Source: Chitinispirillales bacterium
GTDB taxonomy: Bacteria; Fibrobacterota; Chitinivibrionia; Chitinivibrionales; Chitinispirillaceae
Direction of reading: 5' to 3'
DNA length: 64,000 nucleotides
Assembly: GCA_031254105.1 (NCBI GenBank)
Contig: JAIRVB010000012.1
Span: 1-64,000 of the forward strand
Each line of letters begins with the position of its first letter. The first letter of the stretch is position 1. The notes beneath the pieces are model-generated. The model ran no database searches and was not told the origin of the DNA. It saw only the letters and a program-made list of their open reading frames with translations. Shown in pieces: positions 24,901 to 25,737 of this stretch. The position numbers and the translations under genes were made by a program.

Positions 24901-25737
24901 CGGCGTCCGGTTAAAAAAGCTAATCAAAAGTGCGCGAAGCCGCGTGTCTTTATACCGCTGCTTCCTGGAACCACGAGTGAATACGATATCACCCGTGCAT
25001 TTACAAAAGCTGGGGCGGAGTGTGAAATGTTCGTCCTCAAAAATACACGATCGGGCGATGTGGCTGAGTCTGTCAGCATAATTTCCGAAAAGATTGCAAA
25101 CGCGCAAATACTTATGATTCCCGGCGGGGTTGGCGTAGGGGATGAGCCGGATGGTTCGGGTAAATTTATCGCCGCGTTTTTCCGCAATCCCCGTATCAAA
25201 GAAGCTGTCACCGAATTTCTTAATAAGCGTGATGGGTTGATACTTGGCATAGGCGGGGGATTTCAGGCGCTTGTAAAGCTTGGACTTCTGCCTTACGGTG
25301 AATTCCGCGATTCAAACGAGAACAGCCCCGCATTGACAGTTAATCCCGCAGGACGTCACATATCACGAATAGCATACACAAAAATATGCTCAGTCAACTC
25401 GCCGTGGCTTTCCAATGTAAAGTTAGGCGACATACACGCACTCCCCATCTCAAGCAGCGAGGGGCGTTTTATCGCCTCAAAGACGGAGCTTGAAACGCTT
25501 TGCAAAGCAGGACAGATCGCGACTCAATATGTAAACAGCAATGGCCAGCCCGAAGAGGGAATTAACGGCAACATCAGCGGCTCTCTCTGCGCTGTTGAGG
25601 GAATACTAAGCCCCGATGGCCGAATCTTCGGCAAAATGGGGCACTCTGAGCGCGTTGGGGAACCTTATGTGGCTAAGAATATCTGCGGGGATAAGAATCA
25701 GAAGATTTTTGAGGCAGCTGTTGGGTATTTTGGTTAG
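21940..25737 (+). CDS. purL: phosphoribosylformylglycinamidine synthase, single-chain
   Basis: This 1265-residue enzyme makes FGAM from FGAR, ATP and an ammonia source in purine synthesis. It has the long single-chain form: N-terminal linker (about 1-190), two AIR-synthase-type halves (for example [11 protein letters not shown] at about 225, [29 protein letters not shown] in outline at about 325), and a C-terminal glutaminase domain from about 1010. The glutaminase nucleophile is missing: the usual GICNG reads GIGGG, with Gly at residue 1105, although the His-Glu pair (GHSER) remains. It should therefore depend on free ammonia. A Glu/Lys-rich insert (about 965-1000) links the domains. The start has only a weak GGGGG site. 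Confidence 0.95.
   Translation: [1265 protein letters not shown]

Follow-up and report, generated by a model that had tools for sequence, protein, structure and literature searches.

The purL gene in a 64,000-nucleotide stretch of contig JAIRVB010000012.1 from a Chitinispirillales bacterium (the window; assembly GCA_031254105.1) very probably encodes a working FGAM synthetase that can no longer hydrolyse glutamine and instead uses free ammonia to amidate FGAR, within nucleotide pathways that would run largely on ammonia. PurL is predicted to use glutamine no longer as nitrogen donor because the catalytic nucleophile of its glutaminase domain is missing, and activity with free ammonia would follow from the conserved synthetase domain together with the dead glutaminase. 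These predictions were drawn from comparative sequence analysis.

Loss of the glutaminase nucleophile in PurL

The purL reading frame is uninterrupted, and a profile search matched TIGR01857 along its full length (residues 5-1264; 1665 bits against a curated cut-off of 1057). Searching the genome returned no second PurL, making purL a single-copy gene. The preliminary description had read the nucleophile motif as carrying Gly in place of Cys at residue 1105 and Gly in place of the neighbouring Asn, and the codons GGC ATA GGC GGG GGA (G1103, I, G1105, G1106, G1107) confirm it (Table 1). Alignment with Escherichia coli PurL pairs residue 1105 with Cys1135, 1235 with His1260 and 1237 with Glu1262, which form the known triad, and 1238 with Arg1263. 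The Cys-His-Glu triad of the window PurL is incomplete, with Gly at the Cys position; His1235 and Glu1237 are kept in an unbroken GHSER motif, as had also been described.

PurL was compared across 108 sequences, of which 96 bear the cysteine and 12, from Fibrobacterota and Clostridia, lack it. The column of residue 1106 holds Asn in all 96 Cys-bearing PurLs. A substitute for the nucleophile was sought among the five cysteines of the window glutaminase domain and none was found, all five sitting elsewhere in the domain; C1188 alone occupies a column that is never Cys in the Cys-bearing PurLs. A single read error had been thought improbable, and sequencing error is now excluded for practical purposes because independent genomes bear different replacements (GTGSG, GIGDG and GISNG in relatives). 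Directly upstream of purL lies trpD (window 20109-21218); trpG/pabA is on another contig (G000:C42).

Table 1. Features of the window PurL. Signature changes were counted over 11 Cys-less PurLs, one near-duplicate of the 12 having been left out.
Feature	Position in window	Strand	Evidence
purL, FGAM synthetase, single-chain TIGR01857 type, glutaminase predicted dead	21940..25737	+	1265 aa; TIGR01857 1665 bits
Signature change E64D	22129..22131	+	E in 96/96 Cys-bearing; changed in 10/11 Cys-less
Conserved FGAM synthetase domain (residues 180-960)	22477..24819	+	10/227 highly conserved columns changed; dN/dS comparison
Signature change L404V	23149..23151	+	L in 94/96 Cys-bearing; changed in 8/11 Cys-less
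Signature change T406S	23155..23157	+	T in 95/96 Cys-bearing; changed in 11/11 Cys-less
Signature change K491N	23410..23412	+	K in 96/96 Cys-bearing; changed in 10/11 Cys-less
Signature change K536A	23545..23547	+	K in 92/96 Cys-bearing; changed in 9/11 Cys-less
GATase_5 glutaminase domain (residues 1000-1265) with decayed active site and retained fold	24937..25734	+	PF13507 232 bits; 13/80 conserved columns changed
GTTSEYD replacing GTNCEYD, residues 1010-1016	24967..24987	+	Alignment; N1012 and C1013 correspond to E. coli N1051 and S1052
PGGVGVGDE replacing PGGFSAGDE, residues 1061-1069	25120..25146	+	Alignment with relatives
Nucleophile motif GIGGG replacing GICNG	25246..25260	+	Sequence; relatives' motifs
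Codon GGC, Gly1105 where the catalytic Cys is expected (E. coli Cys1135)	25252..25254	+	E. coli PurL alignment
SSSEGRF replacing SHGEGRF, residues 1171-1177	25450..25470	+	Alignment with relatives
His1235, Glu1237, Arg1238 kept (E. coli H1260, E1262, R1263)	25642..25653	+	Unchanged in 12/12 Cys-less PurLs

Unequal constraint on the two domains

Synthetase motifs, among them SDHCRHTTF and one 11-residue motif, are kept in the window PurL, and its AlphaFold2 model (pTM 0.86) matches the Salmonella and human FGAM synthetases of the PDB along the whole chain. Damage was counted at columns that are at least 97% conserved in the 96 Cys-bearing PurLs. In the glutaminase domain, the first seven Cys-less PurLs have 5-19 of 80 such columns broken, against a mean of 0.30 and a maximum of 2 in the Cys-bearing PurLs; in the synthetase domain 4-10 of 227 are broken, against a mean of 1.03 and a maximum of 5. 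The columns having been picked on the Cys-bearing set, the absolute counts in both domains favour that set, and the comparison between domains is less affected.

Substitution rates point the same way for the Cys-to-Gly members of the family. The ratio of glutaminase to synthetase dN is 1.43-1.66 for pairs among these three, 0.77-1.08 for Cys-bearing pairs, and 0.9 between G001, where Cys is replaced by Ser, and a Cys-bearing relative. For pairs among Cys-less PurLs and near relatives, dN of the synthetase domain is about 0.15-0.2 against a dS above 1.3, and both PurL domains are far more constrained than neutral, with synonymous sites near saturation in these comparisons. The alignments thus indicate that in Cys-less PurLs the glutaminase decays and the synthetase stays constrained. 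The dead glutaminase domain may be retained for a structural role or as an ammonia port.

Repeated change of the cysteine among relatives

Among 121 genomes searched, every readable motif of a TIGR01857-type PurL was GICNG or GVCNG apart from four in the window's own family: GIGGG in the window genome, GISNG in G001 of the same genus, GIGDG in G018 and GTGSG in G020. Alignment with other Fibrobacterota, proposed in the preliminary description, thereby showed the cysteine to be lost in three further members of the family. It is kept in G019, G021 and G022, which are about equally close. Three more PurLs without it (L186, L201 and L240) turned up among 80 named relatives, almost all of them Clostridia; the L240 isolate series is listed in a biogas-reactor genome paper (PMC7038595). 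A nucleotide pattern representing the Gly form matched 6 of 391 genomes in the class of G121 (L186), five of them new, and the reversed control pattern gave zero matches in the same 391.

The near-identical residues that accompany the loss in distant hosts could reflect a single origin of the Cys-less form followed by spread between phyla, so that the shared substitutions would be ancestry and not convergence. This alternative concerns the origin of the form and leaves ammonia use unaffected. We hold it to be highly improbable: on a tree inferred with the signature columns removed, the Cys-less PurLs are scattered and the Cys state changes seven times, six of these forced by well-supported branches, though some of the changes could be regains. 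On this sequence evidence the PurL cysteine has changed state repeatedly, at least six times, in unrelated bacteria.

Substitutions that accompany the loss

Five residues in the N-terminal and synthetase domains, nearly invariant in Cys-bearing PurLs, are altered together with the nucleophile (Table 1). They were first picked as positions changed in most of seven Cys-less PurLs, and the pattern was repeated in five PurLs found later (T406 in 5/5, K491 in 5/5, E64 in 4/4, L404 in 4/5, K536 in 3/5). By comparison, 213 of 273 conserved columns are changed in none of the 11 Cys-less PurLs. In independent pairwise contrasts, T406, K491, E64 and K536 mostly changed in the same direction in 5-6 of six pairs and L404 in fewer, none ever in the opposite direction, a result near the limit of what six pairs can show. 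Fisher tests on the signature ignore relatedness and overstate the case. The only Cys-bearing PurL with T406A is that of Lutispora saccharofermentans (L199), the nearest row to the Cys-less L332, which hints that the T406 change can precede loss of the cysteine. Ammonia exits Salmonella PurL at Arg1263/Asp657 (PMC3815217); in the alignment with E. coli PurL, the stretches near residues 404-406 and 536 are unreliable.

Other glutamine amidotransferases of the genome

Class-I glutaminase domains (PF00117) number one in the window genome, none in G001, G018 and G020, and five to seven in the Cys-keeping G019, G021, G022 and G008. The lone domain of the window genome is TrpG/PabA with an intact GICLGHQ motif. 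A separate purQ, raised earlier as a point to check, did not emerge: the PurQ profile matched only PurL itself and one non-significant place in the window genome. Loss of the cysteine and absence of purQ together support the earlier suggestion that this PurL likely needs free ammonia. G010 and G015, which belong to the neighbouring genus and are rated more than 90% complete, yield no PurL match at all and keep several class-I glutaminases.

Ammonia might also be supplied to PurL in trans by another glutaminase. The modelled glutaminase domain appears to fold like its relatives and could offer a docking place, and TrpG/PabA is intact; against this, PurQ is missing, and the window genome has just one recognisable class-I glutaminase, with none in the three other Cys-less relatives. 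We regard supply in trans as extremely unlikely and free ammonia as the probable substrate.

Queries with GuaA, PyrG, CarA and HisH of close relatives yielded nothing from the window genome beyond a GuaA synthetase lacking its glutaminase domain and a cross-match to TrpG/PabA. By this BLAST-based query, PyrG, CarA and HisH were not found in the window genome, G001, G018 or G020. A second BLAST-based query located CarB and HisF in the window genome, so CarB stands there without CarA and HisF without HisH. The PF00117 profile agrees on the lack of CarA, HisH and a GuaA glutaminase. For PyrG, agreement comes from PF06418, the CTP synthase profile, which gave nothing significant in the window genome (G000), G001, G018 and G020; PyrG was present in 6/6 other relatives tested. 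All these absences rest on metagenome assemblies, of which four agree and that of the window genome is rated 100% complete. Neither profile nor BLAST revealed a CTP synthase in these four related genomes, one of them rated 100% complete.

The sole PurF found in the window genome (L156:8884-10374, G000:C4) starts MGGFFG, with Gly replacing Cys1; its gene is part of a DUF1846-purF-carB cluster (L156 7240-13623). Gly1 PurF probably predates the loss of the glutamine-type copies, because G008 and G010 carry it beside a normal PurF. In G008, a second purF-carB cluster contains PyrG and CarA fragments (L162:12131-12828 and 14450-14893, G008:C14) that appear to be decaying. GlmS was not found by BLAST in the window genome and G001, and is intact in G018 and G020. 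An AsnB-like protein in an exopolysaccharide-type locus of G001 (L170:2430-4310) has Cys1 replaced by Gly (MGAIAG); that of the window genome keeps Cys1 (MCGIAG) and reads DGEIFN for NGEIYN. The intact TrpG/PabA and the presence of GlnN-type glutamine synthetases led us to reject a total loss of glutamine use.

The preliminary description had also cited an ammonia-dependent nadE in support. This gene (window 57936-58961, family PRK00876) does encode a single-domain NAD synthetase of a common type; as an argument it is weak, because 44% of genomes have NadE without glutaminase (PMC3376133, Table 1).

Finally, PurL could be drifting towards a pseudogene, with purines taken up and the cysteine lost through simple decay. 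The missing CTP synthase makes some nucleotide salvage probable, and two relatives of the neighbouring genus lack any PurL match. Such drift nevertheless sits poorly with an intact reading frame, strong constraint on the synthetase domain, damage focused on the glutaminase domain and the change of identical synthetase residues every time; the remaining purine pathway is also present as far as tested (PurD, PurM, PurE, PurC, PurH and GuaB, with PyrB found as well). We therefore consider a decaying PurL very unlikely.

A parallel pattern in Clostridia

Among the Cys-less Clostridia, the L186 genome encodes an MGG-type PurF together with a CarA that reads GIGLGHQ and has lost its His; in the L240 genome, a deletion removes most of the GuaA glutaminase domain; and in the L201 genome, alongside an intact PyrG, the GuaA glutaminase domain is shortened and reads GIGSG. 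L201 and L240 keep a Cys-type PurF. The L182 genome keeps the PurL cysteine, yet its GuaA is shortened and its CarA motif damaged, so the accompanying amidotransferase losses are not strict in Clostridia. Class-I domain counts were 1, 0, 0, 0, 1, 3 and 1 in Cys-less genomes against 5, 7, 5, 7, 3, 3, 5, 6, 5, 7 and 6 in Cys-bearing ones (Mann-Whitney p 0.0007, a result weakened by related genomes and incomplete assemblies). The clostridial GuaA proteins L278, L302, L301 and L311 have shortened or broken glutaminase domains, in G126 alongside a full-length GuaA.

A proposed model for ammonia-fed nucleotide synthesis

We propose that free ammonia would enter the old channel of PurL, and that E64D, L404V, T406S, K491N and K536A would adapt these enzymes' N-terminal and synthetase domains to ammonia arriving from outside. 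An older ammonia-type set (a PurF2 with Gly1, CarB without CarA, GuaA without glutaminase) may be the sole survivor after loss of its glutamine-type counterparts; PurL, present in one copy, would have lost glutaminase function in place. Some glutamine chemistry would be kept in the tryptophan or folate branch. An E. coli PurF that lacks the N-terminal Cys remains able to use ammonia (PMC3261824). Three observations run counter to this model: TrpG/PabA and the GlnN-type synthetases imply that some glutamine is still made and used; constraint on the glutaminase domain is fairly strong, which simple disuse fails to explain; and ammonia use does not account for the missing CTP synthase.

A broader proposal is possible, though somewhat doubtful: a recurrent syndrome in which anaerobes of ammonia-rich habitats lose or disarm most glutamine amidotransferases and make nucleotides from free ammonia. 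The dead glutaminase of PurL, with its His-Glu-Arg, would then be an entry port, and E64, L404, T406, K491 and K536, which mark the change, would be elements of the channel gate or of coupling.

Comparison with known systems

Glutamine is regarded as the near-universal nitrogen donor of these enzymes. A 2012 survey of hundreds of genomes reported no glutaminase-less arrangement for purL, guaA, pyrG or carAB (PMC3376133), and in the open-access literature we found no publication describing the glutaminase-loss pattern. If the reading is true, enzymes that repeatedly gave up glutamine with the same substitutions would constitute an evolutionary experiment on glutaminase-synthetase coupling and ammonia-channel gating, and they would also point to a possible genomic marker of living under high ammonia.

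The window PurL resembles the single-chain FGAM synthetase of TIGR01857 in domain order, length, synthetase active site and profile score, and differs in lacking the catalytic cysteine and other glutaminase residues and in the five signature positions. Herpesvirus tegument FGAM synthetase-like proteins, relatives of FGAM synthetase described as pseudo-amidotransferases, have other functions, whereas the window PurL has a conserved synthetase domain and a purine pathway that is otherwise present as far as tested. The PurF' of some archaea, without an N-terminal Cys, shows the same type of change in the first purine enzyme, and its use of ammonia is likewise a proposal only; it is, however, another enzyme with another class of glutaminase, and no genome-wide pattern was reported there (PMC3261824). 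Single-domain NadE is likewise an amidating enzyme, one that takes free ammonia in vivo (PMC3376133), but its glutaminase domain is absent, whereas that of the window PurL is kept in a predicted dead form.
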